Assembly: GCF_964340395.1 (NCBI RefSeq)
Contig: NC_135554.1
Span: 1,456,001-1,520,000, forward strand
Length of the DNA stretch: 64,000 bases
Source of the DNA: Glandiceps talaboti
Taxonomy: Eukaryota; Hemichordata; Enteropneusta; Spengelidae
Direction of reading: 5' to 3'
This document shows, piece by piece, positions 4,224 to 44,617 of the stretch. A model generated the notes under the pieces. The model was not told the DNA's origin and did not search any database. It saw nothing but the letters and a program-made list of their open reading frames with translations. A program made the position numbers and the translations under genes. Numbering within the stretch: the stretch's first letter is position 1; every line of letters begins with the position of its first letter.

Positions 4224-4351
4224 ATGGCTACTTCCGGGATTTTCCAAAAGGACGTGATTTTTATAATTGTACTGTTTGATTTGTTACTTGTTGATGTTAC
4301 GACTTCTTCGACAGATTACGTACTTGATTGTGAGCAGCTTCTCATGGGGCA
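4224..4351 (+). CDS. TM2D1: TM2D1 coding exon 1
   Basis: Starts at the ATG in AGAATGGCT and codes for the signal sequence and DCEQLLMGQ. It ends in CA, two bases into the Gln43 codon. The following bases ATATCCTTTT match the U12-type 5' splice site. Reading on without splicing gives a stop after 17 codons and loses the conserved Cys that follows GQY in this family. Confidence 0.85.
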
Positions 4352-7300
4352 ATATCCTTTTCGATACTCATGTTTGATCGCAACATATATAAGTCAGGAA
4401 TCCTAACGAGTCACATCAGAATGGTCAGTCATCACCCGTTCCAGATTCGTGAAATCGGTCGATACAAAATACAGGTACAGGCCAGGCCAGGTCAGGTATC
4501 GACTGAATATTTTTTTTCTTGATTCACATTCATATCCAAAGATGTGAATCCGTAATTATATTTGGTGTAGATTTTCGATTAGTTGTCAGGTTATTCTTTC
4601 TCAGCAATTCACTATCAGTTTAAGGTACACAGGGAAGAATCGCCTTGACTATTTCCAACGTAATCCGACACAGCACGAAGTGTTTTGGACTTTGAACTTT
4701 ATGTCCATGCTCACTTCCCACCATGGCCGGCGGCCAGTCAAAAAGGAGGAACAGATAGTCCAATGTTCCTGCTCCTTTACCAAAATATACTCAAGAATTG
4801 TCATTCCCGACAAAAAAAACTTATTTACTGCATGCACTATCGGGCGATCCATTATGCAGAGACCTACTTCCGCATTCCACTCCATTATCATGGCGCCACC
4901 CGTAACCTCTCATGAATATTTACTAAAATACGTCATCTTCGGCTTAGTTCGGCAAGATTTTTCCACGTTCGGACTAATCCTTTGACCCAACTTTGCGTGT
5001 TAGCGGGAAGTACCCGGATGATAATGTAGTTTTATGGTAATTCTTCAGACTCTGACCTATCGATGTTTGGTACTCGCTTTTCAATCGGATCACTCGTTGC
5101 AGTTTTACGTGATTTCGCCTGGGACTTGAAAATGACAACGTTTGGACTAAAAAATGGACCATTTTCACAGCTTTTACTTATAATTAATTGGGAATTCACC
5201 TATTTTTTTTATCAAACATCGATAGAGTATGTTGTTTTGAATGTGTCTAGGTCACAGTTCAGGGTGTACGCCAAATACATTTACAGGAAACGCTCGCCGA
5301 AATTTTCACCAATTTTTTCCCCAAATCTTGTCCAAATTTGACATCTTTGTAAAGAAAATTTCTTCCACCAAGCAATTATTTTTTCATACATCGATTCACT
5401 AGGTATTTTTAAGTCTGTATTCGGAGTTTCATGAAAATTTAACGGCAAATTTCCATATGAGTGGCATGTGAAGTCAACAATGTATGTTAGTAATTGTTAC
5501 AGATCTAAGGGCCTGCAATCGGCAGCGGTCGGCCAGCAGTTCTTCCCTGTGTACCTTAAATTGTTGTTTGCAAAATCGCCACATAATAAACCATATTCTT
5601 AAATGGCAGCCGAGATCTCGCACAATGCGAGAGTTGCGCGTGATCTACTGCTTGGGGGGCATACACTGCATTAATTTATCAACAATGGGCGATAGTATAG
5701 TGTCTGACGAACGATCAAAACCCAGCATAACATTTCTCAAAAAATGGAAGGCATCAGAACTCAAAAGCTATTTAAAAGACCATGGCCTGCCAACATCTGG
5801 AAGAAAAGATTATTTGATTGAATTTGCCTGCATGAAGGCATAAGGGGCCGTACCAAACGTAATTCCTTCGTTTAGGGGGAGGGGTAAGAGTTCATTTCAT
5901 TTTGTGTGCGTCAAAATCACTATAAGGATTTTTAATTCTTACTAAAATGGAATCAAAAGAGGCAACGCTATGACAGTCAGAAACTTTGCTGACATACACA
6001 GAGAGAGATGCATGTTGTTCTAAAATAACCATATGGCCAAGTAACCGACCTGGCCAGGGAGTGATGTACAATAAATCAGTGGGTTTTTTAAGGCTGGTAA
6101 GCCAATAAATGTTACTGGGGTTCCCCAATCAATTTACCGGAGTTCCCCATGGGTGTGGCCACGAAACATTGGAAAACTTACAAAAATGCTTTGAAAATGG
6201 TGTTTTAACAAATAAAAAGCAAGTTAACTTCATAAAATACCTTCAGCATGATGATAATTTTTTGGGAAAAACCATGCATAGTCCGATTGTTTTGCTTTCC
6301 GCCATAGTACTGTGAGTCGATTGTTTTTGTTTTGACACATACTGTAATGACCCTGTTGCAATGAACATAAAAAGAGGCAACACTAATGTTGCAATTTTCG
6401 TTGTCATTTTTATGTCTACATGGAAAATTACTGGTTCATACGGACACAGCACAGTGCACTCAACACGTCACGCTCCCATGTCAAAAACACTCACTGTCGT
6501 ACACATGTCTAGCGATAGTTTTCTTCAACATGTTCAGATGTTTTGTTTACAAAAACGAAAATCATAGTCGGAGACGATACGGCACCATGGTAGGGTTTCA
6601 GTGAGCACGGGTCGTTTTTTTGGAAGCAAATGAAACCACTTTGTCTCTGTGTGGATGGTAAAGAAAATCAAAAGAAAATGAAATAAAGCGAGTATATATT
6701 TTCAAGTAGGACAGTTATCAGTCACAGACAAAACTTTCTGCATTAAATAGACGACTTCGCTAAGATTTTGAAAGGTCAAAGAATGTACTGTGACGACACT
6801 TGCAACGTCTGAACTATTAAACTAAAGGGAAGAGACAGAGGAGGAACTTAGCCGTTCAATACTGAAGTAGCCATGGAAAATCTTACTTTCGTATTTTTTC
6901 TTAAAGGAAGCAAATTATAGAAAACTTAAATTGAAAACCATAGATATCGATTTTGGAGCACATGTACGGTGAGTGACCTTACGTCACCCATACTTATCAA
7001 CATGTAAACTAGCATATTCTTTCACTGTAAAAACAACAACAACAACAACTAATACTAATACTACTACTACTAGTAGTAGTACTACTACTACTATACTATT
7101 ATGTAGACAGGCAGAGCTCTTCGAGGAAATCAATGATGTGATTCGTTTTTTGACATTCTAATATGAACATATCTCCTGTCGGACGTCCTATATGTACGTA
7201 TAAATAAATTTAATTTGCAATCCATGTCTGAATGGGACCTTCTTTCAGGCGCATATTGACTGACTGACACCATCCATCCATCCATCCATATCCATCATCT

Positions 7301-10300
7301 ATCCATCCATAGAGTGACGTTTTTTTCTACATTAGACAAGAATTATTTTTAGATATTGTGTTATTGTCGGCGTTATTTTTCAAAAATAATCAAATGTATT
7401 TTTGCGATGTCATTCCGACAGTGTTATTCGTTTAAATATTTTTGTGTCATGTGACCTAGACGAAAATTCGAACATTCCTATTCCAACCTAGAAAAGAATA
7501 CATTTTCTCATACCTAATCAGCACACATAAAACCCAACCCTTTCCAGCACATCATTTATGGCTGAATCGACCTATAAACATTACGTTTGTGTAACTGTAA
7601 CAAAAACAAGGCTGTCGTGTCGCTGGATTTCTGTGCGATTGACCTGTTAAGGCTGTTAGTACCACAAGCTTGGAACACATAGTAATACTAATAGACTTGA
7701 CACAGTGTAGAGAAAGATCAAATGTTATTACATTATATTTAATTAAATATTACATTATATTTAATTAACGTCCACCCATTAGGTTGAAACTAAGTCATTC
7801 ATCATCTAGTAATTAGTATTCAGTTCTTATCCTAAATCGCACAGATCTGTTTGTGGTGTTAGACTTCATAAGGCTGAGCAGCGAAGATGGCGATGCAAAT
7901 TCGAATATACAGGGAGGTTTTCGAATTAAAAGTGATACCTGTGTCGGCTGGTTAAATGCTCGACACAAAATCCACTTCTTGAAGAAAATACGTTACGGTG
8001 AAATCAGACTGGTCTTGTAGCAGGAGGACACTATTTTCACAAGCATAGAACTTTTTGAAGATGGAAAACTTATGAAAAATATTATTAAACCAGTATTGTG
8101 ACCTCGTTTATTATACCTTAGGTGTGATTACCTCTCAACCTGGACGGTTTTCTATCGATGTATTGTGCCACATCATGTGCCCGGATATTAACGAAGACAT
8201 TGTTTGGTTCACTTCTTCTGTGATCTCTCTTTGATTTGAACCTAGTGGCACAAATGTTGCAATAATGTAATGATAAAAAGTGCCCTTAACAGCTCAAGAA
8301 AGTGAAACATTGTTCATGTTTTGATTTTCGATGAGTTTCAAAAAATGAATGTTAAAAAATTGATATCAACATCAAAAAAAAATTCTAAATTACATGTATT
8401 TCTAAATGTTGATTGGTACGTATTCATAATTTAAAATTACCTCAAAAAAAAGAATCATATCATCTCTGGATAGATTTGGATTTCACTTGGGCATCATTAG
8501 TCACGCACCATGACACGTAAAAACAGACTGTTGTCACAGCCCACCCATCCATGAGCAGTGGACTTGCCCCACATTGAGACCACATATTATTACATTGCGT
8601 CATGTGTTGTTAGCTAGTGAAGCCCTTTTTCCGATCTCTGCAAGTTCGATGGGTACGAAAATATTGCACATCACTTTCATTTCAATTAATTAGAATTCAA
8701 TACTTGGGAATTACAATGTACCATTTTGTTCATTTTAGTGACATTTTATTTAGTGTCACGTAAGTAGTGTCAGTGAACAACACGACACAAGATGTCATAT
8801 GTTTGATGTGGCCTCTAAAATTGAACTAAAGTGTCATAGATGGTGGTATTGCTAACGTTTATTTCAGCACTCACAACAAGTTAATCGATCAACTGATGTA
8901 TGTTGATTCAATCCTTCTATTAATATGAAAATCAAAAGTTCGATCACCTGAAATAATTATTCAGCAATAGTTTAGTAATTCAAAACAGATTTGAAGATGT
9001 TTTCACGTGATAGTTGAAACATGTGAAAGCCACAGCCGCCGTGAATGTGTTCATCACTGTCTTGGTGCGACAGTCAAAATCGACGTGCATAAATTACATG
9101 CAAATCAAAACGACTCGACAGAAACAACTTGAAGGCTGAAAAGCATGAGAACTGGTAAATACAATTTCCAGTTGAAACTATGTTTTGCAGAGACAGTAAA
9201 ACGTTTTACAATTTGAATTGCAATTAGAGTTTGTTATGTTTATCGATGTCATGGTATATGATACCTTGGAGTAATTATACAGACAGTATAATTACTCCAA
9301 GATGATACATACATGTAGGACAAGTCGTTGGAAGGTTACTGAAGTCAATCCAAGTCGGTTTGAACAGCCATAAACAAAGTTGCAGTGGTCATTTCCACCC
9401 ATACTGAACGTAGACGCTCTGAGCGACAACCTACGCTATACTGTGACACAAGTTACACAATGGTTTCCTTTCAGTGTTTGTCCCCCCCCCCCCCCACTCA
9501 TCTAAAATAGCCAGCCCAAAAAACTGCTCTGCTACAAAACATTCTATTATTCTTGGACTAAGTGCATAATATAAATACTAATTATGATACCTGCCATTGA
9601 AAATATACATAACACATTATGGGGAGGATGGCACATTGAAACAATAAGCTGGCCTGAAGTCCTTCTGTAGACACCTGTGTTTATACATGTGTGAAAGTCA
9701 TATATAGCATATCTTTGTTTCTCTTCACTAATACTATACTGGAGGCAATCAATGGTGAAAATGTCTGACTAGAGTTGACAGCTTTTCAAAACAATTATGA
9801 CCAACTGTCATTTGATATGCACTTTGCTGACTGTATCAAGGAAAGATACCAGGTGGACAGAAAATGTACCTGCCACTACAGTTCATGACCTCTCAATGTC
9901 TACACTCACAGCAACTTCAATCAAATGGCCAGTAGCTCATTGAATATTTTTCTTTGGAGATAAAACTCGGAAATATTACTAGTACAGTGTTTCGCACACA
10001 TCAGAAAATATTTACAGTGGTATTTAAAGCATCCTACCTTTGATGTTGTTGATAGTTTTAGTTCTGAGTTTCAAGGACACCTAATGTCAGCTTTCCTATC
10101 AAGTTTACAATGCTGTCATTTGATATAGCAGGACCAAGTCATGTTATACAGCCAGTGATGGTAATTAAAAACCAGATTTAAACTGAATGCCACCAGTAGG
10201 GAATCACTAATTATGCAAATTAAACTAAAAGAACTATGGTAACGTGCTTTCTTAGGTGTATGTGTGTGTGCCAAATTATACATTTTTTATAGTGAGGGAT

Positions 10301-13004
10301 GTTTTTTTTCTTCAAAATGTTGGTTTTTCTTGAACTCTTGTCATGAATTTGAAGAGGGAATAATAAACACAGCAGTGTAACAGTTCTGAAACAAGTGGTT
10401 ACAAGAGTAGGATTTCTCAAAGTTTTTATTCAATCATATGTTCACTAATTTTGAAGTTGTTCTTTGTCCTTGTCTGAAAAAAAAAATCATAAATTTGAGC
10501 ACTGCTATTCATTGGTATTCAGATTAAAAATTGTGACTAGCTGGCTGTCCAATCTTTCTAAACAATATATAATATACTCTGTAGAAATGACTTAAAATTA
10601 CATAATTTTAATTGCCTTCTTTTTCTAAGGTGTAATGTGTAGTACACAATTTTCAAAAAATAGCTTACTGGGAACTGTTATTATGAATGGAACTATTTTA
10701 TGTAGTTAGGTATTATATATAAGTGGTCTATGTATAATGGAGTATCTCAGACCACGATATCTCCATAATGGTCTGAGGTAATATATATGATTTCATAGAC
10801 AATAAATAATTGACCCCACTCCCTGTCAAATGACCCCACTTTTTGCAACCAATCTTATTCTTTACTATGCCAGTTCCTAGTTGCTCAAGTTCAGGTGTCA
10901 GTGGAATGTCTTTCCTTACTGCTAATGATGGTGGTATTGTTCAAATTGGACATTTGTGGCATTTCACATCCTCCCAACTGACTGCCATCTTGCAAGAGTT
11001 GCAAGTCAGAATTATAGCTGACAGTGTGTTCATGAAGCACCTCCGAGGTTTATCTATTTGATGTGCCTCAATTTGCAACTTGCAGTTTGGGCAGAGAATA
11101 CATGATACACCTTTGTTCTGGAATGCCAGTGAGATGCACACACCACAAAACAGGTGTCTCTAGGGGTCTGTTCAATAACCCCTATCAAATAATGCACAAG
11201 ATGTCACCATTTACAGGGACACTAAATTTAATGGGAGTGTGAATTCAATAGATGATGACATTTTTCTTGCATGTAATAGATGATGTATATGCTGTATACA
11301 GTCATTTGGAAACGGCGATTTCTGATGTGGTGCAGACTGACACTCCAGTTTTCTGTCATTGTGAGCCCCTTCCTCGTTTATCCTTTTTAGGTCACCCACC
11401 CTTTGTTTGTATTTGAAACAAATAAGCAGACAGGGCAATCTGCCTCATTTTTATCATAGGAAGCCCAGTATCAATTGTATTAAGGGTAGAATTAACATTA
11501 CAAATACAAGACCAAATATTGCTCTCACTACATGTATATTTATCAAGCATATCTGTTATATAGTTTTCCCAATTTGAATAACACATGGAAGATAAGTATG
11601 CTGACTTTAATAAACAATCATCACTAATAACTAATCTATGCCAATACTTCAACATATGCTTAATAACAACAAAATTAACAGGAAAACGCCCCAATTCCCC
11701 TATAATACCATTTATTGGAGCTCTCTTAGAAACACCTAATAAAAATCTATGAAAAGAGTAACTAATCTCATCAAGAAAATTTTTCTTTTGATTTATTTCG
11801 CAACCCCAGACTTTGCAACCATAAGTCATGATAGAAACTATTAAACGATCAAAAAGATCTAAAGCTATATCAACTGAGATACATCCATCAGAAGATACGA
11901 GTCTACGTAAACTGAAAAGAGCTTTCATGGACTTTAACTTCAAGTTACAGAAATTTCTTTTAAACTTACCATTAGCAGAAATTATAATACCCAAGTAGCA
12001 ATATTCCTTAACATTATCAATTGAAATTCCATTTAAATGAAAACTAACACTTTTAATAAAACGGTTGCTCTTATTGAAAACAATGACTTTAGTTTTCTTG
12101 ATGTTTACAGTTAATTTCTATTTTGAACAAAAGTTGTGTAACTTATCCAAACAGTGTTGTAAACCATTGGTAGATTCTGACAATAACAAAAGATCATCAG
12201 CATAAAGAAGGCAATTTAGAGAAAGAGAGTTAAACTTAACTGATAAATCCTCATTGGAATCAAAGATACAAGGTAAATCATTTAAATAAATATTAAATAA
12301 AGTTGGACTTAAATTACGACCTTGCTTGACGCCTACCAAAGAACTAAAAAAATTTGTGAGATCAGCATTTGTTTTTACACAATACTCAACATTATCATAC
12401 ATAGATTTAATCAAATCATAAAATTTACCATTTACACCATAATTCCTCAGTTTCCAAAATAGACCATTACGCCAAATGCTATCAAATGCTTTGCGTAAGT
12501 CAACAAAACAGCTGTAAAGATACTTATAACAATTACTTGACTTGGTAGTAGAGTACACATATTTCTCAATTGCTGATTTAAGTACAAAAATATTATCAGA
12601 TGTTCTCCTCTTGGCCCTGAAACCTGACTGGAAAGGAGTGTAAATTTTGTTATCATCTAAAAAATTAACAAGTCTACCATTTAAGACTGAGGTGAGAAGT
12701 TTTGCTAGTTTTGTTTTATATTGTATATGCACCAAAACTGTGGAATCACCTTCCATCTGACCTTCGTTGATAGAGAAATTTGAATATTCAAGGCAAATCT
12801 TAAAACGTTCATATTTTGTCAATGTTATTCTTGAAGTAGTTGTGTCTTAATTTTTATGGGTTTCTGGTGTGTCCTGTATTGTTTCTTTTGTTATTTTAAT
12901 TTTATGATGTGATGTGGTGTTTTTCACTGAATCATGCGATTTGTTATGTGCAGACCATTGAAAGATGTTTTGTGTAATGGTCTTTAAACAATATATTATT
13001 ACTA

Positions 13005-13047
<43 letters not shown>

Positions 13048-13288
13048 AAGGAAATTTTTTCATTAATTTTCATTTCTTTCCATGTTTTTTGTCAAATTTT
13101 GGTAAAATCATCCACATATTATGGTGATTTTGGTTACCATGAGAACGGATGTTAATAAAATGACCCCTTTTTTTAACTCAGCATAAAAACTACCCCAGCT
13201 AAGGTGGTTAATATTCAAATAAACTCGATTATTACAAATTCTATTATTATTATATAATATTATTTAATTATTATTATTATTACAAGTG

Positions 13289-13337
<49 letters not shown>

Positions 13338-16300
13338 ATTGTGTGAGAGACAGTTTAGAGGAATGGTGCCTTTTGGTCCTATTGTCAATAAAATGTATCC
13401 GTTTGAGCATATATTTGCTATGCCGGCTCATATTTGCTATGCTGGCTGATGTTTGAGGGCGTCCTTTCACAACTTTATCTGTACATACTTAATTCTGCAT
13501 TCAATTTGTGAGAGTCTAAAATATAATAAAAAGCAATTTCAATATTGCATGTCAGGAAAATGTTATGTAAATTGTTATGATTATTTACAACTTTACAGCT
13601 AATCAATATCTTTGGAATAGTGACAGCATACAAGTCACAAAACAGAATGACCATTACTCTACATACTACATTATCAGTAGAGTACATGGCCGGCATGCTA
13701 TTTGAAGTTTTGCAGGCAGGGAAAATGGACGTGTTTTAGAACAATTTTGTTTCATAATAGATTGCACAAATTGGTAAATTTTATATGGAGAGTGTTGGAA
13801 ATGTTTTAAAGTCACAGTTCAAGGTTCAAGTTTACTTACAAAGAAATGAATCCGCTTGAAAAAAAATAATGCTTTGACGCCATATACGTGTAAAATTTTG
13901 ACTGAAAGTTCATTATCTTTCTGTAATTTCAAAAGTATTATAAGAAATAATGAATCATAAGTGAATCACAGGTGATATTATTTAAGCCACTTCATTTCCA
14001 ATTAGCAGATGGGTATTGCCTGGGGCTCCGGTGCAATTTTAGATCTAACCATCTTTTCCACTGCTGCTGCATTAATTGGCGCATTTCCAAATTGTCTCAT
14101 CATGCAACAGTCACGACAGTACCACAGTAAAATGTGGATCAAGATGAATGGGACAGCGAAATTTCAGACAATTGTCTTTTGGTGACTCATTTGGGAATGT
14201 TGACTGCTAAAATCAACGAATGTATTCCAAAAAACAACCCTTTCAAATATAGTTAATCTTTTTGAAGGCGTAGCTGATATTTTCTTGAAGTTATTTGAAA
14301 TTGATAAATATTCTACACGATACTGTGATACTACAAACCAGCCATATTTGAAATTGGCTAGTGAGTTCATTATTGACTTCGAACTGACAGTGCCTCCATA
14401 TGGAGTTGCACAGGATACCTAATTTGTATGAAAATGTGACAGCTACATATGTGCGTGGAAATTACACCTGTGTAAATGGACTGTTTAATCATGAAGCAAC
14501 TAACAGTTTCCCTGACTGCAACTTTGGATGGATGTTTTCGTACACGAGTGTCTCATGTCAAACCGAACTTTATTACTCAAAGACCTACATAATCGAACAT
14601 CCATCATGTCATATATTTAACTGAAGTTTATGTACTACGTATGCATATATGTATATGATTTACACTGCCAAGAAAGGACAGTTGAACTGTGCTCAAATAG
14701 CAAAAGGTATGTAGAGCTGATGACTCTTCGTTAGCAGACATGTTTAACGTTTGCATATGTTAGCGCAACTCAAAAGAACAAAAATGTCAAGATGGGGTTG
14801 TAACTTGTATTTTCAAGTTGATGGTAATTTGTATTAAATCGTAATTTCACTCAGTATATCGTTATTTCTGTGTAATGCTGTCATTATTGCTAATGGTTGC
14901 CAGCTTTTACATGTAAAATGAGTGAAGGCCTTCTTCACATTCCTGCACATCGGTTTGTTTATGTACATTTATATGCATGTAGCACCCTCCTTGCGCATTA
15001 CATGTTGTATGCAGTCTGGCCCTGCACTTTGATATTTGGGATCGTAATTAAACCTTGTGATCGGCAAAGATCTTCTGACATACATGTTAAAGCTTTAACG
15101 ACCAGTCAGTTTGTGACTCGTTGCATATTTTATTTGGACTTAGAATAACAAAATATTTGATATTTTAATAGCAAACCCATTCATTTGTAGGTGTATGTCA
15201 GATGTATTTTTTACTAAAACATGGCATTTGTATTAATGTAAGCGTATTTTATGTTTCCATGGACGCCACTGTCCAATTTTAGATATTACGTGTATGTCTT
15301 ACAATAGATAGCACTAGTGCATATATGCCAAAAATAAGCAGGCAGGCTAACATGATATAAATAATCTTCGTGAGTTTTGATAACCACAGACAAGGAAAGT
15401 CTTTCGATAATGCAGCTGTACACAACACGTAAGCACGGCAATACTTGTTATAAGTTAGCAAGTCATACAGTTTTGGAAGATTCCATTTTACCATGATTGC
15501 TTTCACAACATGGACATTCACATGTATGCAGTAGTCCATTGGTGTAGGGTCTATGAGTAGTCCAGGTCGGTTTCATTTCTTGCGTTAGCACACCCAGCGT
15601 CCCCCATTGCTCAAAGTGTAAACAGTGGTGGATAATTGTCAAAATAAACATCACTGTCCCTGTATCACAGAAATATTGGCACACAGTCACACTTCCTCTA
15701 TCACAGAAGGAGTGGTAACATTGCCAAACAATGTGTTTGTCCATAGACCCCACTATGGTTTGTCAATCCTTTCTGTGATGTACTTGTTTTGACTAGATCT
15801 ACCCTGACCAACATAGTCCTAGATTTTGGTAGCAAATATCAAAGTTAGATTCAAACATATTTATAGATTTGATGACTGTACTAACATTTCCTTAACTTTG
15901 TCACATATCATTGTGAGATACCTGATATTGACCCAAAGACACAGTCTGCAAGAGATTGTGATGAAGATGGCATAGTATCAGGTATTCTTTTCTCATGTTC
16001 CTTTTTTAGCACAACTAGTGCTATAGGCATGGCAAAATGTGTGTGTGTAAATGACTTAAACTCAAAAACTGCGATATTTGGTGGGGACATTACTTAGGGT
16101 GTGTAGATGGAAAATAGTTCAAATGAAAATGATCACATCACAGATGTGTTTTTTGGGTCAAAAAGTGATTTTTGGTAACTTAGACTCCATAAGATCTGGG
16201 CAGATTGGCCTGAAATTTGGTTGGAATGTTCTTCGGGGTTGTTTAGTTTAAGAATTGTTCATGACAAGATGATCCCATCAATGATATGCAAATTTAGGCT

Positions 16301-19300
16301 AAAAATGTGTCTTTTTGGTCAAAAGTCTTTAATTCCAAAATTACACAGCAGATGGCTGAGATTTGGTGGGAACGTTCTAAGGGGTGTTTAGATTAAGATG
16401 TATTCTTGATGTGATGATTTCATCTGTGATATGCAAATTTTTTAATTAGGGATGTGTACAAGAAGATGTAGTCACAATATCATCATCCCGTCAGTAATAT
16501 GCAAATTAGGTCTAAAAATCTCAATTTGGTCAAAATCTTGAAAACTACATGGTGAATGGGGCTGAAACTTGGTAGGGATGTTTCTGGAGGTGTTATCTGC
16601 AATTTTTGTTCAAAACATTTGACACAACTGCCCCTTGCAACCATGGCCATGCCCTTCAGCAACAGTAAGACTCACATCAGTTTTACAAAATAATATTAAA
16701 TTATTAGAAAAATATGATCGTTTCTGAGTTTTTAGCACAACTGAACTACAGTGTAGGTTCAGTAGTGCTATAAGCATCGAGCAGTGTCTGTCCATCTGTC
16801 TGCCAGGTCTGTGTGAGTGTGGACGACTTAAACTCAAAACTGCCAACCTGATTCCCTTGGTATTTGGTGGGGACATTACTTGTGGGGTCTAGTTGGGAAA
16901 TTGTTCAAATGAAAATGATCGCATCACAGATGTGTGATTTGGGTCAAAAAATGTAATTTTTGGTAAAAAAAAACCTTTAACTCAGAAACTACTTGGCAGA
17001 TTGGTGTGAAATTTGGTGGGAACATTCTTAAGGGGGTGTAAAGTAAGATTTGTTCATGATGATTCCATCAATAATATGCAAAGTAGGGCTAAAAATGTGT
17101 CTTTTTGTTAAAAAATCTGTAATGTCAAAACTATTCAGTAGATTGGGCTGAAATTTAACAGTGATGCATATGTGGGTGTTAAGATGAAGAAATATAATGA
17201 TCTCATCAGTGATATGCAAATTAGGTGTACAAATGTGAATTTTGGTCAAAAATTTATATCTCAGAAATTACTTGGTCAATGAGACTGAATCTTGGTGAGA
17301 TGTTTCTAAAAGTGTTATTCTGAAGATTTTCTTCAAAATATTTTGACTTATTGGCCCTAGCAACCATGACCACGCCCTTAGGAACAACCAAATGGTAGTA
17401 TATTTTGGTCAAATAACATCATCTGGTAGGCAAGAGAATAAAAATGTATGCAAATATCCCTAGCAACCATGACTATGCCCATAGCAACAGCCAAACAGTC
17501 ATGTATTTCACAAAGATAACAGGAATTAATAGACAAATGAATAAACATTCAAAAAATGGATATAAATTTGCCTAGCAACCACACCCATAGCAACAGACAA
17601 ATGATCACATATATTGTGAAGATAACGAGGATTAATAGACAAATGAATAAACATTTAAAAATGTGTGCAAATATGCCGAGCAATAAGACCACGCCCATAG
17701 CAACAGCCAAATCATCACGTATATTGCAAAGATAATATCAGGAATTCATACAGAAGTGAACAAAAACATTAAAAAATGTATGCAAATATATATAACAACA
17801 TGACCACACCCAGAGCAACAGCCAAATGATCATGTATATCGCAAAGATAGCAACATGGTTGGATAGGCAACTGGATAGTCATTCAGCAAATGAACACCTA
17901 TTGTTAGCATGGACTAGCATATGGATAAACATTTTTTAAAAACTGTACAGTTGTGCTACAACGCCACTGGCAGTATTTTTTCTTCTGTATGGAAGAGATG
18001 TATTTAGTGGGTGAAAGGCTGTCTGTCTGTGTCATCGTTTTCTCTAAAAACGGCTGGCTCAATTCAAACGAAATTTGGTAGATGTGTTCAGTAGGGTAAT
18101 GGCAAGAATTGATTAGGTTTTAGTAAACATCCCATGAATATTAATAAGCAATTAATGTAATTAATGGTTTTTGGTAATTAGGCTATATCTCAAGAATACA
18201 AGCTTCAAATTCATTATAACTTGGTACATACATTTGCGATACCAAAGCGCACCTGTCCTGAAAATATTAGTGATGTAGCTTTTAGTTTTAATAAGTTATT
18301 GGTATATTTTTGTAGGCCACAAAAATGGAAAAAATAGTTTCTCGTCAGGAAATGTCTAAAGTGGTGTGACGATGCGATTATTTTTTTTACATTCTCAACA
18401 AATGTTAATCAATCTACTTATCATTGTAGTTACTGTTCTTTTTATTTAGTACTTTACAGCAAGTGTGTATGTGGGGCAGATGTCATAGGCTAGTTCATGA
18501 TTACTTTTGCAGTTAATTAACGCGGGAAGGGGGGTACTTAAGTGATGGGCGCTGACCAGGAACAATTTTCTTTTGTTTTGGGCCTTTAAATCTCTTTCTA
18601 TGGTGAGTGCTATGCTACGACCTCAGACTACTAACTACTTTGTGGTCTGAGCTACAATGTTCTATAAAGCTTCACATTACATGTTGTGGTTGGCCAGGAG
18701 ATCACTAACAGCAATGGGCAAATAGTAATCAATGAGAAAAAATATCTTATTGTATATGTTCTGTTGTATTCCAACAATTGTCTGTAGGAACGACAATCTC
18801 AAAACTTTGCCCTTACGGAAGGCATTCAGTTTAAATCTGGTTTAATATATACTTTTATAAAACTGTGATGGTTAAGTGTTGAACATGTTTTCCAGCAACA
18901 GGTAGAATTCATGTTTTAAAATATATGTAGAATAAGTGTAAACAACATTCTATTTAAAAATTCTGAGCACTTCATTGACCTATGATATACTACTACTTAT
19001 ACTCCCAGACAAGGTAAATTTGTCAACATCAGTTAAATTGTAATTTATATACAATGTATACACAGCGTATGACCGAGAATTCTATTGTTATCAAAGCTCA
19101 TGGCACAGGATGATTCACTTTCAAACATATAATATTCCCAATGCATGAATGTTTAAATTAAAAATGTACATGCACTTAAGTTTACATTTCATTTTTGAGG
19201 TCATTAGGTTAGTGTTAATTCAGATTAAACTCTGTTAATTCAGATTAAACTCTGATATTGTTAATTAAGATTAAACTGTGATATTGTTAATTCAGATTAA

Positions 19301-22300
19301 ACTCTGATAGTGTTAATTCAGATTAAACTCTGTTAATTCAGATTAAACTCTGATATTGTTAATTCAGTTAAACTCTGATAGTGTTAATTCATATTAAACT
19401 CTGACAGTGTTAATTCAGATTAAACTCTGATAGTGTTAATTCAGATTAAACTCTGTTAGTGTTAATTCAGATTAAACTCTGATAGTGTTAATTCAGATTA
19501 AACTCTGATATTGTTAATTCAGATTAAACTCTGACTGTTAATTCAGATTAAACTGATATTGTTAATTCAGATTAAACTCTGACTGTTAATTCAGATTAAA
19601 CTCTGATAGTGTTAATTCAGATTAAACTCTGACAGTGTTAATTCAGATTAAACTCTGACTGTTAATTCAGATTAAACTCTGACAGTGTTAATTCAGATTA
19701 AACTCTGATAGTGTTAATTCAGATTAAACTCTGATAGTGTTAATTCAGATTAAACTCTGACAGTGTTAATTCAGATTAAACTCTGATAGTGTTAATTCAG
19801 ATTAAACTCTGACTGTTAATTCAGATTAAACTCTGATAGTGTTAATTCAGATTAAACTCTGATAGTGTTAATTCAGATTAAACTCTAACAGTGTTAATTC
19901 AGATTAAACTCTGATAGTGTTAATTCAGATTAAACTCTGACAGTGTTAATTCAGATTAAACTCTGATAGTGTTAATTCAGATTAAACTCTGACAGTGTTA
20001 ATTCAGATTAAACTCTGATAGTGTTAATTCAGATTAAACTCTGACTGTTAATTCAGATTAAACTCTGACAGTGTTAATTCAGATTAAACTCTGACAGTGT
20101 TAATTCAGATTAAACTCTGATAGTGTTAATTCAGATTAAACTCTGACTGTTAATTCAGATTAAACTCTGACAGTGTTAATTCAGATTAAACTCTGACAGT
20201 GTTAATTCAGATTAAACTCTGACAGTGTTAATTCAGATTAAACTCTAACAGTGTTAATTCAGATTAAACTCTGACAGTGTTAATTCAGATTAAACTCTGT
20301 TAGTGTTAATTCAGATTAAACTCTGACAGTGTTAATTCATATTAAACTCTGACAGTGTTAATTCAGATTAAACTCTGATAGTGTTAATTCAGATTAAACT
20401 CTGACAGTGTTAATTCAGATTAAACTCTGACAGTGTTTATTCAGATTAAACTCTGTTAGTGTTAATTCAGATTAAACTCTGATAGTGTTAATTCAGATTA
20501 ATCTCTGACAGTGTTAATTCAGATTAAACTCTGATAGTGTTAATTCAGATTAAACTCTGATAGTGTTAATTCAGATTAAACTCTGATAGTGTTAATTCAG
20601 ATCAAACTCTGATAGTGTTAATTCAGATTAAACTCTGATAGTGTTAATTCAGATTAAACTCTGATAGTGTTAATTCAGATCAAACTCTGATAGTGTTAAT
20701 TCAGATTAAACTCTGACAGTGTTAATTCAGATTAAACTCTGATACTGTTAATTCAGATTAAACTCTGACTGTTAATTCAGATTAAACTCTGACTGTTAAT
20801 TCAGATTAAACTCTGATAGTGTTAATTCAGATTAAACTCTGATAGTGTTAATTCAGATTAAACTCTGATAGTGTTAATTCAGATTAAACTCTGACTGTTA
20901 ATTCAGATTAAACTCTGACTGTTAATTCAGATTAAACTCTGACTGTTAATTCAGATTAAACTCTGATAGTGTTAATTCAGATTAAACTCTGACTGTTAAT
21001 TCAGATTAAACTCTGATATTGTTAATTCAGATTAAACTCTGATTGTTAATTCAGATTAAACTCTGATAGTGTTAATTCAGATTAAACTCTGACAGTGTTA
21101 ATTCAGATTAAACTCTGACTGTTAATTCAGATTAAACTCTGACAGTGTTAATTCAGATTAAACTCTGATAGTGTTAATTCAGATTAAACTCTGATAGTGT
21201 TAATTCAGATTAAACTCTGATAGTGTTAATTCAGATTAAACTCTGACAGTGTTAATTCAGATTAAACTTTGACTGTTAATTCATATTAAACTCTGACAGT
21301 GTTAATTCAGATTAAACTCTGATAGTGTTAATTCAGATTAAACTCTGATATTGTTAATTCAGATTAAACTCTGACAGTGTTAATTCAGATTAAACTCTGT
21401 TAGTGTTAATTCAGATTAAACTCTGTTAGTGTTAATTCAGATTAAACTCTGACTGTTAATTCAGATTAAACTCTGACTGTTAATTCAGATTAAACTCTGA
21501 TAGTGTTAATTCAGATTAAACTCTGATAGTGTTAATTCAGATCAAACTCTGATAGTGTTAATTCAGATTAAACTCTGACAGTGTTAATTCAGATTAAACT
21601 CTGATAGTGTTAATTCAGATTAAACTCTGACTGTTAATTCAGATTAAACTCTGACTGTTAATTCAGATTAAACTCTGACTGTTAATTCAGATTAAACTCT
21701 GATAGTGTTAATTCAGATTAAACTCTGATAGTGTTATCTTCAAATGGAAATTCATCTGTGTTGGTAAACCATAGTATTCAATTTGAACTTTTGTTCCAAA
21801 CACAACTAGAAAATTTACCTGAAATTTTCGACTGTACACTTCAGTCTTTGTCAACAGATTGACCCACTATTCAGCACACGTGACCTTACAGGACACGTGA
21901 GCCTAATAAGGGGTCAAAGGTGCCTGGAAGTTTGTATCGTCCCCCGTCTCTGTTTAGTGATGACACTGAAACCAGATATTTTGAACGGGGAGTGAAAGAA
22001 GCTATTTACATCCGAGCACTCAAACCATCACTAAACAGAGACGGGGGACGATACAAACTTCCAGGCACCTTTGACCCCTTATTAGGCTCACGTGTCCTGT
22101 AAGGTCACGTGTGCTGAATAGTGGGTCAATCTGTTGACAAAGACTGAAGTGTACAGTCGAAAATTTCAGGTAAATTTTCTAGTTGTGTTTGGAACAAAAG
22201 TTCAAATTGAATACTCTGATAGTGTTAATTCAGATTAAACTCTGATAGTGTTAATTCAGATTAAACTCTGATAGTGTTAATTCAGATTAAACTCTGACTG

Positions 22301-24725
22301 TTAATTCAGATTAAACTCTGACTGTTAATTCAGATTAAACTCTGACTGTTAATTCAGATTAAACTCTGACTGTTAATTCAGATTAAACTCTGATAGTGTT
22401 AATTCAGATTAAACTCTGACTGTTAATTCAGATTAAAGTCTGACTGTTAATTCAGATTAAACTCTGACTGTTAATTCAGATTAAACTCTGACTGTTAATT
22501 CAGATTAAACTCTGATAGTGTTAATTCAGATTAAACTCTGATAGTGTTAATTCAGATTAAACTCTGACAGTGTTAATTCAGATTAAACTCTGATAGTGTT
22601 AATTCAGATTAAACTCTGATAGTGTTAATTCAGATTAAACTCTGATAGTGTTAATTGAGATTAAACTCTGACTGTTAATTCAGATTAAACTCTGATAGTG
22701 TTAATTCAGATTAAACTCTGATAGTGTTAATTCAGATTAAACTCTGATAGTGTTAATTCAGATTAAACTCTGTTAGTGTTAATTCAGATTAAACTCTGAT
22801 AGTGTTAATTCAGATTAAACTCTGATAGTGTTAATTCAGATTAAACTCTGATAGTGTTAATTCAGATTAAACTCTGATAGTGTTAATTCAGATTAAACTC
22901 TGATAGTGTTAATTCAGATTAAACTCTGATAGTGTTAATTCAGATTAAACTCTGATAGTGTTAATTCAGATTAAACTCTGATAGTGTTAATTCAGATTAA
23001 ACTCTGATAGTATTAATTCAGATTAAACTCTGACTGTTAATTCAGATTAAACTCTGATAGTGTTAATTCAGATTAAACTTTGACAGTGTTAATTCAGATT
23101 AAACTCTGATAGTGTTAATTCAGATTAAACTCTGATAGTGTTAATTCAGATTAAACTCTGACAGTGTTAATTCAGATTAAACTCTGACTGTTAATTCAGA
23201 TTAAACTCTGATAGTGCTAATTCAGATTAAACTCTGACTGTTAATTCAGATTAAACTCTGATAGTGTTAATTCAGATTAAACTCTGACAGTGTTAATTCA
23301 GATTAAACTCTGATAGTGTTAATTCAGATTAAACTCTGACAGTGTTAATTCAGATTAAACTCTGATAGTGTTAATTCAGATTAAACTCTGACTGTTAATT
23401 CAGATTAAACTCTGATATTGTTAATTCAGATTAAACTCTGATAGTGTTAATTCAGATTAAACTCTGATAGTGTTAATTCAGATTAAACTCTGACAGTGTT
23501 AATTCAGATTAAACTCTGATAGTGTTAATTCAGATTAAACTCTGATAGTGTTAATTCAGATTAAACTCTGATAGTGTTAATTCAGATTAAACTCTGACTG
23601 TTAATTCAGATTAAACTCTGATAGTGTTAATTCAGATTAAACTCTGACTGTTAATTCAGATTAAACTCTGATAGTGTTAATTCAGATTAAACTCTGATAG
23701 TGTTAATTCAGATTAAACTCTGATAGTGTTAATTCAGATTAAACTCTGATAGTGTTAATTCAGATTAAACTCTGACAGTGTTAATTCAGATTAAACTCTG
23801 ACAGTGTTAATTCAGATTAAACTCTGACAGTGTTAATTCAGATTAAACTCTGTTAGTGTTAATTCAGATTAAACTCTGATAGTGTTAATTCAGATTAAAC
23901 TCTGATAGTGTTAATTCAGATTAAACTCTGATAGTGTTAATTCAGATTAAACTCTGACAGTGTTAATTCAGATTAAACTCTGACAGTGTTAATTCAGATT
24001 AAACTCTGACTGTTAATTCAGATTAAACTCTGATAGTGTTAATTCAGATTAAACTCTGATAGTGTTAATTCAGATTAAACTCTGATAGTGTTAATTCAGA
24101 TTAAACTCTGACAGTGTTAATTCAGATTAAACTCTGACAGTGTTAATTCAGATTAAACTCTGTTAGTGTTAATTCAGATTAAACTCTGATAGTGTTAATT
24201 CAGATTAAACTCTGATAGTGTTAATTCAGATTAAACTCTGATAGTGTTAATTCAGATTAAACTCTGATAGTGTTAATTCAGATTAAACTCTGACAGTGTT
24301 AATTCAGATTAAACTCTGACTGTTAATTCAGATTAAACTCTGATAGTGTTAATTCAGATTAAACTCTGATAGTGTTAATTCAGATTAAACTCTGATAGTG
24401 TTAATTCAGATTAAACACTGACTGTTAATTCAGATTAAACTCTGACAGTGTTAATTCAGATTAAACTCTGATAGTGTTAATTCAGATTAAACACTGATAG
24501 TGTTAATTCAGATTACACTCTGATAGTGTTAATTCAGATTAAACTCTGATAGTGTTAATTCAGATTAAATAATTTGTGTGATTTCATTTATAGTTAACTG
24601 TTACCCAGCCCCTAACATCAGCTGTGATGATATGCAGTTTGGATTTCAAAAAGACATACCTTGCAGATACACGTGAGTAGTAATTGCAGATTTTTTATTT
24701 TAGGTTCAGTGGTTTTATAGGCATG

Positions 24726-24793
<68 letters not shown>

Positions 24794-27700
24794 CAAAGAC
24801 AAAAACTGCCAGACCTTCATATGTGGTGGGACATTACTTAGGGTGTGTAGATAGGAAATTGTTCAAATGAAAGTGATTGCATCACACATGTATTCTGGTG
24901 TCAGAAAATGTAATTTTTCGTACCCCTTAATATATTTCTAAAAATCTAATCCAAATCTGCCAAATCACAAAATACCCCCAGACAAAACTCCTGCTTAGTA
25001 TAGATAAATGGGTTGTGATTTGCTTTACATGTAATGTAGATTTGTACAGTAACTAATTACAGTGTACACTCATACAACTTGTATATCAACTGACTTTCTG
25101 CAATTATTGTAACACCTATAACCAGATTTAGACTGAATGTCTTGCAATTTCATGAGTTGTGCAGGAAATTTAGCTCTATATCTGTGATTTTTCAAGTCCC
25201 AATGAAAGTGAGTTGTCAAAAATGTTGTTCAAATGCCTCCTATTCTCAGCACAGGAAAGCTTGCCATCCTTGACTTCGCTCGGCTTTTGTGATCCCCTAT
25301 ATACCCGGGATATGCACACCTGTTTCCACGGCAAATAATAAACAAAATTCAAACCCACATAACATTGCTATAATTATGCATCAGAAAGTTTACATACTTC
25401 ATGGTAAACATCATAACAGTTTAACAGCTGTAATACAGTGAAGTGATACAGTATTATTACCCTACTTCGTCACTGGGTAAAGTGTATACATTCCTATTTC
25501 AACCGACAGATGTACCATCTGCTCGAAATCTTTAATCACTACGGGAAAATTGTCAAGATTTGTTGAGTGGCATGCCGTCACTGTACACTAATTATGTAGA
25601 GGTCAATGTATAGGTCGCCAGTATTCTTTTTGATACATTGTTGGGAAATTTTTTTCGTAGGCTAGGCTTGGTCTATTTTCCATATTTGACCACATACATT
25701 TATACATACGGTGTAAATTATAGATTATTACACTTGATAAATATGTGAGAGTGTATTTATTTCCTGAGATACCTTGCTAGATACACAAGCCTTGCAACAA
25801 ACAGCGGTAGTTTGTTAACGAGAGAAATCGGAAAAGAACACAGTAAAAAGGAGACAGTTCGAGGTCAATGTAATATACTTCCTAAATTTCTAATCGAAAA
25901 TCTAAAAAGATGTGATTTCTCTTTATTCATCTGTGAATTAGTGTGTGATATTTCAAAATGATATGTCCATATTTGACGAAATTGAAACGACTTTACTGGT
26001 GGGATATAGTTTACATCTTGGTGGGTACACTTTACTGGTGGGATATAGTTTACATCTTGGTGGGTACACTTTACTGGTGGGATATAGTTTACATCTTGGT
26101 GGGATATAGTTTACATCTTGGTGGGTACACTTTACTGGTGGGATATAGTTTACATCTTGGTGGGTACACTTTACTGGTGGGATATAGTTTACATCTTGGT
26201 GGGTACACTTTACTGGTGGGATATAGTTTACATCTTGGTGGGTACACTTTACTGGTGGGATATAGTTTACATCTTGGTGGGTACACTTTACTGGTGGGAT
26301 ATAGTTTACATCTTGGTGGGTACACTTTACTGGTGGGATATAGTTTACATCTTGGTGGGTACACTTTACTGGTGGGATATAGTTTACATCTCTATGGTTA
26401 CACTTTACTGGTGGGATATAGTTTACATCTTGGTGGGTACACTTTACTGGTGGGATATAGATTACATCTTGGTGGGTACACTTTACTGGTGGGATATAGT
26501 TTACATCTTGGTGAGTACACTTTACTGGTGGGATATAGTTTACATCTTGGTGGTTACACTTTACTGGTGGGATATAGTTTACATCTTGGTGGGTACACTT
26601 TACTGGTGGGATATAGTTTACATCTTGGTGGTTACACTTTACTGGTGGGATATAGTTTACATCTTGGTGGGTACACTTTACTGGTGGGATATAGTTTACA
26701 TCTTGGTGGGTACACTTTACTGGTGAGATATAGTTTACATCTTGGTGGTTACACTTTACTGGTGGGATATAGTTTACATCTTGGTGGTTACACTTTACTG
26801 GTGGGATATAGTTTACATCTTGGTGGTTACACTTTACTGGTGGGATATAGTTTACATCTTGGTGGTTACACTTTACTGGTGGGATATAGTTTACATCTTG
26901 GTGGTTACACTTTACTGGTGGGATATAGTTTACATCTTGGTGAGTACACTTTACTGGTGGGATATAGTTTACATCTTGGTGGGTACACTTTACTGGTGGG
27001 ATATAGTTTACATCTTGGTGAGTACACTTTACTGGTAGGATATAGTTTACATCTTGGTGGTTACACTTTACTGGTAGGATATAGTTTACATCTTGGTGGT
27101 TACACTTTACTGGTGGGATTTAGTTTACATCTTGGTGGGTACACTTTACTGCTGGGATATAGTTTACATCGCTATGGTTACACTTTACTGGTGTGATATA
27201 GTTTACATCTTGGTGAGTACACTTTACTGGTGGGATATAGTTTACATCTTGGTGGGTACACTTTACTGGTGGGATATAGTTTACATCTTGGTGAGTACAC
27301 TTTACTGGTAGGATATAGTTTACATCTTGGTGGTTACACTTTACTGGTAGGATATAGTTTACATCTTGGTGGTTACACTTTACTGCTGGGATATAGTTTA
27401 CATCGCTATGGTTACACTTTACTGGTGTGATATAGTTTACATCTTGGTGGGTATGCTTTACTGGTGGGATATAGTTTACATCTTGCTGATGTTCTTTTAC
27501 AGGAATGGTGTGTACCATGAAGTAGCTGTTTTGTTATCTGTATTCCTGGGTATGTTTGGAATTGACCGGTTCTACCTAGGTTATCCTGCAATTGGACTTC
27601 TTAAACTCTCAACACTAGGTTTTTTCTTTCTTGGTCAGCTTATAGACATCATTCTTATAGCTTCACAGGTAAGGCATCACAGGACAGTTTTACAACTGAA

Positions 27701-29776: not shown

Positions 29777-32722
29777 ATGGATGCAGTTTCTTTTTGGACC
29801 TTGCTGTTCTACTTTCTTCTCGTCTATGGTGTGGGTACAACTTGCCATGATGGTGGGCAAAATAGGTATTCCCGTGAGCAGCTGTTGGCTGTTTGATGGG
29901 ACCATGGTGATCCGCCAAAAATACCACCTGAATTGGAAGAAATATTACAATCAGAGTCTAACCAAAATTGTCATCAACCACACCAACCTTTACACCGTAG
30001 ACGACGTGGAAAGAGAGGAGGAGTGAAACAGAGACTTCGTAAACGTAAATACAACCCCCCACTTCCATCTATTTTGTTAGCAAATGTACGCTCACTCAGA
30101 AATAAGATAGATGAACTCCATGTAAACACAAAATACCTGACAGAATATCGCGATTCATGTCTATTGTGTTTTAGTGAAACATGGCTGACAGATAATATAT
30201 CAAACAATGCTCTACAGGTGGACGGGTTTTATGGACCATTCAGGACAGATCGGGATCATGACGTAACAGGGAAAGCCATCGGTGGTGGAGTATGCATCTA
30301 TGTTAATGCGAAATGGTGTAAAGAAATACAAGTTAGAGAAAGCATCTGCACAAAGGATATTGAACTACTGTGTATGTCATTCAGACCATACTATCTTCCG
30401 AGGGAGTTTGGCCTGATATTTGCCGTAGTTGTGTACATCCCACCATCAGCTGATACCGCAAGTGCCGCAGCAATTATTCGTAAAGTAGTTGATCGACAGG
30501 AAACCCTGTCACCAGATTCGCCTAAACTAGTGCTAGGAGACTTCAACTCTTGTTCACTATCCAATCAGCTCCCGAACTATCACCAGTATGTCACCTGTTA
30601 TACTCGTAAAGCAAAAACCCTGGATCTTTGTTATTCAAATATCATCAACGCCTATAAAGCCATCAGGAAGTCACCGCTGAGCACTGGTGATCATAATGCA
30701 GTGCACCTGATACCTACCTACCGACAAAAACTTAAACAAAACAAACCACAGACTAGGTCAGTTCAGATATGGTCTCAACAATCAATCGAGGATCTTCAAG
30801 GATGTCTAGCCAGTACAGATTGGTCAGTTCTCACAGAAAACAACTCCCTTGAAAGATCAACAGATATAATAACAGACTACCTTAAGTTTTGTGAAGACAT
30901 GCTAGTAGAGAAAAGGATAATAAAAACGTACGCTAATAATAAACTCTGGGTTACGTCTAACTTAAAACACCTGTTGAAGGAGAAAGCAATTGCTTTCGCT
31001 GAAGGTAGGGTCTCTGATGGAAAGTGTCTGCAAAGGAAATTAAAACAAGAGATACGCGATTGCAAAGACAGGTACAAAATGAAAATTGAAAGTCAGTTCC
31101 AGTCCGGTGATTTGAGGAAAGCATGGAATGGCCTTGCTGTTCTTTCTGGTAAACAGGAAAAAACGAACAGGAAGACGGAAGTGGTAGAAGCAAAGACATT
31201 CGCTAATGAACTGAATGATTTCTATTGTCGTTTTGACACACATAACTTCCAACAGCAACAAGAGAATGCTAGAAATATTGTAACAAGTAAATTAGAGCAA
31301 TCAGATATGCCACAAATATCAGAGATGGAGGTTAGTTTAAAGTTAAAGTGCATTAATCCTAGAAAAGCACAGGGTCCTGATAATATATCTGGTAGATTCC
31401 TTCGTCATTGTCATCTAGAAGTGGCTAGTATCTTCACTACACTTTTCAATTGGTCTATATCAACACATACTATTCCAAGTCTGTGGAAAACATCGGCCAT
31501 TTCACCTGTTCCTAAGCACAACAATCCCACTAAGCTAAACGATTACAGACCAATAGCTCTTACATCCATTGTTATGAAATGTCTCGAAAGTATTGTTTTA
31601 ACTCGCATTACTGACCAAGTTAAGAATCTTACTGACCCACTTCAATTTGCGTACAGAGCTAACAGATCAGTTGAAGATGCTGTTATAGCCCTATTACATC
31701 AAGCCCTTTCCCATCTGGAACAACCCAAGTCTTTTGTCCGTATTCTATTCGTTGACTTTTCATCAGCTTTCAACACCATACAGCCACATCTGATGGTGAA
31801 CAAGTTAAATGCAATGAATGTAAACCCCAACATAATACTCTGGGTGTTAGATTTTCTAACTAACAGACGGCAATATGTAAGAGTAAATGCAATAGGTATG
31901 AATAATCGTAATCCGTCCGCAACAGTGTCTAGTATGCGCAGTACGTCTACTGGCGCACCCCAGGGCTCGGTAATCTCTCCTGTTCTGTTTACTTTGTACA
32001 CAAATGATCTTAAAAGTACAAGTGAAAAGGGACAGATGGTCAAATATGCTGATGATACAGCATTTGGAGATTACTCAAATGATGAAAAACACTTTGAAAA
32101 TCAAGTGCACCACTTAAAACAGTGGTGTGAGGACAATTATCTAGAATTAAACACAAAGAAAACAAAAGAAATGGTAATTGACTTTAGTAGATCTAGAAGG
32201 GAAGTTAAAGCACTTGAAATTAACTCTGAGGTTGTAGAACGTGTTTCAATATACCGCTACCTAGGAACACTCATTGATGACAAACTTACATTCCAACAGA
32301 ACACCGATGCTGTATATAAGAAATGCCAACAGCGAATGTACTTACTGCGTAAACTAAGATCACTGAATATTAGACCAGATATATTGAAAGCATTCTACTC
32401 TAGCCACATTGAGAGTGTAGTTACCTTTTCGTTTCTAAGCTGGTTTGGAGGGTTGACTGTTTCAAATGTTAACAAATTACAGACAGTTGTCAATACCTGT
32501 ACTAAAATATGTGGAACTGAATGTAAAAGCATGAAATCATTATATGGAAAACGAGCACTTGTTAAAGCCACAAAAATTACCAATGACCCTTCCCATGCCT
32601 TAGTTCAGTATTTTGAGATGCTTCCCTTGGGTCGCAGGTATCGAATTTTATCCTTGAGAACACGTCGTGCTCGGCTCAGTTACGTACCTTCAGCCATCAG
32701 AATACTTAACCAGAGAATGTAA
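29777..32722 (+). mobile_element. Rex1/L2-like non-LTR retrotransposon ORF (endonuclease + reverse transcriptase), one in-frame stop
   Basis: One frame runs from ATG 29,777 to TAA 32,722, broken only by a TGA at 29,894 inside SREQLLAV*WDHGDPP. An Arg CGA codon there would need one C-to-T change. After a basic stretch (RRRRGKRGGVKQRLRKRK) comes an APE-type endonuclease with ANVRSLRNK, CFSETWL, VYIPPS, LGDFNS and STGDHNAVH. The RT follows with ILFVDFSSAFNTIQPHLM, STGAPQGSVISPVLF and the catalytic KYADDTAFG (YADD 32,045-32,056), ending in SYVPSAIRIL. Length and domains look complete, so apart from the stop this may be a young copy. ORFs on the minus strand here are shadows. Confidence 0.9.
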
Positions 32723-32949: not shown

Positions 32950-33655
32950 TAGACCAGGTGAGTCACAGAATTAGACCAGGTGAGTCACAGAATAGACCAG
33001 GTGAGTCACAGAATTAGACCAGGTGAGTCACAGAATTAGACCAGGTGAGTCACAGAATTAGACCAGGTGAGTCACAGAATTAGACCAGGTGAGTCACAGA
33101 ATTAGACCAGGTGAGTCACAGAATAGACCAGGTGAGTCACAGAATAGACCAGGTGAGTCACAGAATTAGACCAGGTGAGTCACAGAATAGACCAGGTGAG
33201 TCACAGAATTAGACCAGGTGAGTCACAGAATTAGACCAGGTGAGTCACAGAATTAGACCAGGTGAGTCACAGAATTAGACCAGGTGAGTCACAGAATTAG
33301 ACCAGGTGAGTCACAGAATTAGACCAGGTGAGTCACAGAATTAGACCAGGTGAGTCACAGAATTAGACCAGGTGAGTCACAGAATTAGACCAGGTGAGTC
33401 ACAGAATTAGACCAGGTGAGTCACAGAATTAGACCAGGTGAGTCACAGAATTAGACCAGGTGAGTCACAGAATTAGACCAGGTGAGTCACAGAATTAGAC
33501 CAGGTGAGTCACAGAATAGACCAGGTGAGTCACAGAATAGACCAGGTGAGTCACAGAATTAGACCAGGTGAGTCACAGAATAGACCAGGTGAGTCACAGA
33601 ATAGACCAGGTGAGTCACAGAATAGACCAGGTGAGTCACAGAATAGACCAGTTGA
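32950..33655. repeat. 21/22-bp array (about 32 units) carrying TGAGTCA and CAGGTGAGT
   Basis: The unit is TAGACCAGGTGAGTCACAGA plus A or AT. Length alternates between 21 and 22 bases through GAA(T)TAGACC. Each unit holds the AP-1 core TGAGTCA and a full consensus 5' splice site CAG|GTGAGT. The 21-bp form keeps a reading frame, which makes the MSHRIDQ repeat ORF at the right end; this is not a gene. Confidence 0.95.
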
Positions 33656-33880
33656 GAAATACAGCAGTACCCAAAGTTGGTAGATTGAAACATTTTGTCT
33701 CTCAATGGGAAGATATTAGTTCTAATGCCATAATTCTAGATATTGTTTCTCATTGTCACATTGAATTTTATGATGACAAACCACCATCACAGACATATAT
33801 TCCAAGGGAAATTAAGTTTAATCAAATAGAGAAATAATCAATGGTGAAATAGACCAATTGGTTTCAAAAGGAGTGATGAG
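33656..33880 (+). pseudogene. DIRS-like (tyrosine-recombinase) retroelement RT fragment, frameshifted
   Basis: Reads VGRLKHFVSQWEDISSNAII, then LDIVSHCHIEFYDD and IPREIKFNQIEK. A one-base frame change follows, then EIINGEIDQLVSKGVM. This is the segment that precedes the RT core in DIRS-type elements (GRL-HF--W--I, then IP--I-F---E, then EI--L--KG). It is cut on the left by the 21/22-bp array and on the right by the 50-bp satellite, so no RT core remains. Confidence 0.55.
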
Positions 33881-42800: not shown

Positions 42801-43351
42801 GCTACATGGCATCACATTGAAATCCACAGTACAGTTGATGAGACCTAACTGCTACATGCCATCACATTGAAATCCACAGTACAGTTGATGAGACCTAACT
42901 GCTACATGGCATCACATTGAAATCCACAGTACAGTTGATGAGACCTAACTGCTACATGGCATCACATTGAAATCCACAGTACAGTTGATGAGACCTAACT
43001 GCTACATGCCATCACATTGAAATCCACAGTACAGTTGATGAGATCTAACTGCTACATGCCATCACATTGAAATCCACAGTACAGTTGATGAGATCTAACT
43101 GCTACATGACATCACATTGAAATCCACAGTACAGTTGATGAGATCTAACTGCTACATGACATCACATTGAAATCCACAGTACAGTTGATGAGACCTAACT
43201 GCTACATGCCATCACATTGAAATCCACAGTACAGTTGATGAGACCTAACTGCTACATGGCATCACATTGAAATCCACAGTACAGTGGATGAGACCTAACT
43301 GCTACATGCCATCACATTGAAATCCACAGTACAGTTGATGAGACCTAACTG
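33881..43351. repeat. 50-bp satellite, 189 units plus a partial one
   Basis: The unit is ACAGTTGATGAGACCTAACT, GCTACATGACATCACATTGA, AATCCACAGT. The units keep exact 50-base phase from first to last, so there is no net indel in 9.45 kb. Variation is by substitution at a few sites: GAC/GCC/GGC before ATCACA, TTGATG/TGGATG/TTTATG, GCTACA/TCTACA and ACCT/ACAT/ATCT. Linked rare variants recur as blocks (see findings). No coding frame. Confidence 0.97.
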
Positions 43352-44132: not shown

Positions 44133-44617
44133 ACCAGATATGAATTGAATGCCTTCCGTAAGGGTAAAGCTGTTAGATGGATATGAACTGAATGCCTTCC
44201 GTAAGGGTAAAGCCGTTAGATGGATATGAACTGAATGCCTTCCGTAAGGGGAAAGCCATTAGATGGATATGAACTGAATGCCTTCCGTAAGGGTAAAGCC
44301 GTTAGATGGATATGAACTGAATGCCTTCCGTAAGGGGAAAGCCGTTAGATGGATATGAACTGAATGCCTTCCGTAAGGGGAAAGCCGTTAGATGGATATG
44401 AACTGAATGCCTTCCGTAAGGGGAAAGCCGTTAGATGGATATGAACTGAATGCCTTCCGTAAGGGGAAAGCCGTTAGATGGATATGAACTGAATGCCTTC
44501 CGTAAGGGTAAAGCCGTTAGATGGATATGAACTGAATGCCTTCCGTAAGGGTAAAGCCGTTAGATGGATATGAACTGAATGCCTTCCGTAAGGGTAAAGC
44601 CGTTAGATGGATATGAA
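44133..44617. repeat. 43-bp tandem array, about 11 units
   Basis: The unit is TTAGATGGATATGAACTGAA, TGCCTTCCGTAAGGGGAAAG, CCG, with GGGG/GGGT as the main variant. The first unit reads ACCAGATATGAATTGAATGC, which links it to the dispersed motif at 10,166, 18,805 and 25,118. Confidence 0.95.

Follow-up and report, generated by a model that had tools for sequence, protein, structure and literature searches.

The first intron of a TM2D1-like gene in Glandiceps talaboti, lying within the 64,000-nucleotide stretch of DNA analysed here (the window), is, to judge from its splice signals, almost certainly of the AT-AC type and excised by the minor (U12-dependent) spliceosome. Donor and branch site each match the U12-type consensus at nine of nine positions, the ends are AT and AC, and the intron falls in phase 2 at a junction defined by homology, which bears out the original prediction of a U12-type AT-AC intron at this place.

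Gene model and splice signals of intron 1

The TM2D1-like gene is complete, with five exons encoding 186 amino acids at 4224-28754 on the plus strand, and the predicted protein runs from MATSGIF to KVPDYW. The features of the gene and of its first intron are:

4224..4351 (+): TM2D1 exon 1, coding part, with the start codon, DCEQLLMG and two bases of Gln43; phase 2
4352..15904 (+): TM2D1 intron 1, predicted AT-AC, U12-type, 11,553 bp, phase 2
4352..4361 (+): predicted U12-type 5' splice site, ATATCCTTTT
15888..15896 (+): predicted U12-type branch site, TTCCTTAAC, with candidate branch A 15894 or 15895
15900..15904 (+): predicted 3' splice site, GTCAC; the stretch 3' of the branch site is only TTTGTCAC
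15905..15981 (+): TM2D1 exon 2, (Q)YHCEIPDIDPKTQSARDCDEDGIVS
15982..24593 (+): TM2D1 intron 2, GT-AG, 8612 bp, phase 1
24594..24672 (+): TM2D1 exon 3, VNCYPAPNISCDDMQFGFQKDIPCRYT, with first and last codon split with the neighbouring exons
27503..27668 (+): TM2D1 exon 4, TM2 domain with DRF motif
28644..28754 (+): TM2D1 exon 5, VVGPADGSEYIIDFFGSRL tail and stop

Introns 2, 3 and 4 were modelled as GT-AG introns of 8612, 2830 and 975 bp. The 186-residue model was matched by Pfam TM2 (E = 5.1e-16) and carries the features of the TM2D1 family, namely a Cys-rich ectodomain with GQYxC, the TM2 domain with its DRF motif and a TM2D1-type tail; the hydrophobic N-terminus of the exon 1 translation, judged by eye, is a likely signal peptide. 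Within the TM2D family, the comparison was made with human TM2D1, which served as the tblastn query. With this query identity was 62.5% for exon 4, 48.7% for exon 5 and 42.9% for exon 3 (E = 0.011); the match of exon 1 was weak (E = 4.2) and stood below unrelated matches, and exon 2 was not among the matches listed, at most 25. When 1839 reading-frame pieces were ranked against part of human TM2D1, the exon 3 piece came first, the exon 1 piece fifth and the exon 2 piece eighth (tied with the sixth and seventh), with unrelated pieces, including minisatellite frames, interleaved among them. Overall similarity thus counts for less in exons 1 and 2 than the C-x5-GQYxC motif, their order, their open frames and the correct phases leading into exon 3; for the predicted exon 2 it is motif, frame and phase that carry the assignment. 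Relatives were also sought in a prokaryote collection, which gave two bacterial TM2-region matches only, and in a viral collection, which gave none.

The coordinates and sequence first read for intron 1 were confirmed. It opens with ATATCCTTTT and closes with TTCCTTAACTTTGTCAC, and its terminal AC is at 15903-15904. The donor ATATCCTTT has no mismatch to the nine positions of the extended consensus RTATCCTTT, and the branch site TTCCTTAAC, near the 3' end, has none to the nine of TTCCTTRAY; both consensus sequences served as the yardstick, and scoring used a simple home-made consensus matrix. By this matrix the donor and acceptor of intron 1 were the best AT donor and the best AC acceptor on the plus strand of the window. 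Across both strands, the donor tied for the top score with a minus-strand site at 30352-30360, and the acceptor with its branch site was second among 8622 AC sites, one minus-strand site scoring slightly higher (13.37 against 13.25).

Either motif taken alone is within chance for 64 kb: at least two donor 9-mers appeared in 23 of 100 shuffles (mean 0.93 per shuffle), and at least one branch site/AC pattern in 35 of 100 (mean 0.57). The coincidence of both signals at the homology-defined junction is beyond chance. The probability of finding both at the junction required by the protein was about 1e-9, an estimate rather than a calibrated E-value, obtained from a first-order model of intron 1 with six equivalent registers, 13 branch offsets and AT-AC ends only. 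An Rfam scan of the window returned no family at the gathering score, and a tRNA scan returned nothing.

Counted back from the first base of exon 2, the candidate branch A lies 11 nt (15894) or 10 nt (15895) away, which puts it at the lower end of the 11-13 nt given as optimal in PMC6717393. Minor introns are described as avoiding phase 0 (PMC10639083, PMC7367187) and as tending toward the 5' end of genes (PMC2426677), and both the phase 2 and the position of intron 1 fit. In human, about 22-26% of the minor introns belong to the AT-AC subtype (PMC6717393, PMC10639083). Like the AT-AC U12-type introns of other animals, intron 1 has a ATATCCTTT donor, a TTCCTTAAC branch site, an AC end and phase 2, and likewise is a single such intron among GT-AG introns of its gene; apart from a branch distance at the short edge of the optimum, no difference was found in the features tested. 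It shares the extended donor from position 2 onward and the branch site with GT-AG U12-type introns but differs from them in its ends, which are those of the minority AT-AC subtype.

The steps of U12-type splicing are well established for this class of intron. Applied to intron 1, the donor ATATCCTTT at 4352 would be recognised through base pairing by U11 and later by U6atac, and U12 would pair with TTCCTTAAC at 15888-15896, leaving A15894 or A15895 bulged as the branch point. In the second step the cut would fall behind C15904, and the resulting join of CA to ATATCAT would be translated as ...LLMGQYHCEIP.... The sequences, the frame and the fit to the protein are direct observations, and from them we infer that intron 1 is actually spliced here and that the minor machinery is used.

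The exon 1/exon 2 junction

Exon 1 ends with GGG CA and exon 2 begins with A TAT CAT TGT, which together encode G-Q-Y-H-C, and no gap is left in the protein between the two exons. A local search for junctions covered donors from 4318 to 4419 and acceptors from 15780 to 15929, with GT-AG, GC-AG, AT-AC, AT-AG and GT-AC ends. GQYHC was produced by one of the 26 in-frame pairs, 4352-15904; the other 25 were without it and were rejected. The presence of ATATC on both sides of the junction allows six registers with identical mRNA, and among these AT-AC or GT-AG ends occur in 4352-15904 only. Splicing at this place had been said to restore Gln43 and the GQYxC motif. The join does form GQYHC, but Gln43-Tyr44 is found in the unspliced frame too, which reads GQYPFRYSCLIATYISQES and then stops, so that GQY also appears when exon 1 is read on into intron 1. 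Restoring Gln43 alone is therefore no evidence for the splice, and it is the continuation YHCEIP that discriminates.

The further claim that no GT-AG choice gives an in-frame product was too broad, although it is true that no GT-AG join keeps GQYxC. Within the ranges searched a sole GT-AG pair is in frame, and the major spliceosome could in principle remove an intron with its first base at 4320 and the first base of the following exon at 15918. Such a join would delete 15 residues, VLDCEQLLMGQYHCE, including two Cys and the GQYxC motif, it would use an acceptor, CACATATCATTGTGAG, that has no polypyrimidine tract, and it would leave the full set of U12 signals unexplained. We regard it as very unlikely.

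Just as unlikely is a further coding exon inside 4352-15904, which would divide the interval into two introns. An alternative exon supplying GQYxC was sought there in the three forward frames, and one place fitted GxYxC, QYxC or GQ followed by Y, F, H or W: GNYTC at 14457, in the ORF 14388-14624. The score of this ORF against part of human TM2D1 was reached by 182 of 1000 shuffles and placed it 29th of the 1839 pieces; against the TM2D1 protein of the present gene the score was reached by 738 of 1000 shuffles, for a rank of 716th of 1839. The ORF had no Pfam match and was rejected, and exons 1 and 2 already join gap-free. Lastly, the major spliceosome does handle a portion of AT-AC introns (PMC6717393), but that intron 1 is such a U2-type intron is least probable of all, since its extended donor and branch site, which define the U12 class rather than the end dinucleotides (PMC3584512), each match U12 at all nine positions.

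Intron lengths, repeats and neighbouring features

Intron 1 had been described as long and full of transposons. At 11,553 bp it is the longest intron of TM2D1, but its length is not exceptional beside that of intron 2 (8,612 bp); according to a pan-eukaryotic survey (PMC10639083), the lengths of minor introns are correlated with those of major introns across species. The statement about transposons was exaggerated: 29 stop-to-stop ORFs of at least 70 codons overlap intron 1, and 2 of the 11 that were scanned with Pfam matched above the curated cut-off. Inside the intron lie:

11392..12846 (-): retroelement remnant, with a reverse-transcriptase match at 12118-12846 and then an in-frame stop
5472..5843 (+): SAP-domain ORF

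The open continuation of the remnant at 11392-12117 (-) had no Pfam match. The SAP-domain ORF is probably a fragment of a mobile element, and TTA/TAA microsatellites are also present. The count covers the Pfam-scanned ORFs, and the true transposon content of the intron may be higher.

The donor of intron 2, GTATTCTTT at 15982-15990, departs from the U12 donor consensus at a single base. Intron 2 was nevertheless rejected as a second U12 intron, because the closest fit to a branch site within its final 40 nt has two mismatches and runs into the 3' end; possibly it is a former minor intron. Minisatellites of 26 bp (19210-24569, about 209 copies) and 39 bp (25990-27485, the main array with about 36 copies) make up the larger part of introns 2 and 3; they stop only 24 nt short of exon 3 and 17 nt short of exon 4 and so reach into the 3' splice-site region. 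Intron 4 holds a 24 bp array at 28284-28498.

Downstream of the gene, a 941-codon stop-to-stop frame at 29897-32722 (+), in which endonuclease and reverse-transcriptase domains are accompanied by a match to ALKBH8_N, reads as a retroelement of non-LTR-like type. An array of 50 bp units (33884-43351, about 189 copies, 97% match) is closely preceded by a 22 bp array at 32950-33656, and further arrays occupy 44137-44618 and 51083-53990. A single ORF at 56068-57654 (-) matches cytochrome P450, covering positions 2-461 of 462 in the Pfam profile (E = 4.4e-105).

Age and meaning of intron 1

According to PMC10639083, which cites others, 94% of human minor introns are kept in chicken, and from this high conservation we infer that intron 1 is likely to be old and conserved in animals. 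That it was instead gained recently, or converted from a major-class intron, in the present lineage and is not ancestral is improbable. Under a recent gain, the ATATC found both at the donor and at the start of exon 2 could be left over from an insertion or a duplication; as the conserved Gln-Tyr codons would explain most of this repeat, such an origin is no more than a possibility.

Our literature search found no relevant paper tying TM2D1, TM2D genes or CG10795 to U12-type or minor introns, and supplementary gene lists may well include TM2D1. The paper in which both words, TM2D1 and U12, occur is an unrelated expression study of mouse colon.

Intron 1 of TM2D1 is a valuable find for annotation and, as an intron, a typical representative of a class already known. 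Gene predictors that allow only GT-AG introns would break TM2D1 at this point; beyond annotation, the intron is a further example of a class that has been described well. The TM2D family has been connected with Notch signalling in flies, and TM2D3 with Alzheimer risk (PMC8714088). Should intron 1 belong to the U12 class in other animals as well, the minor spliceosome would be required for the expression of TM2D1.
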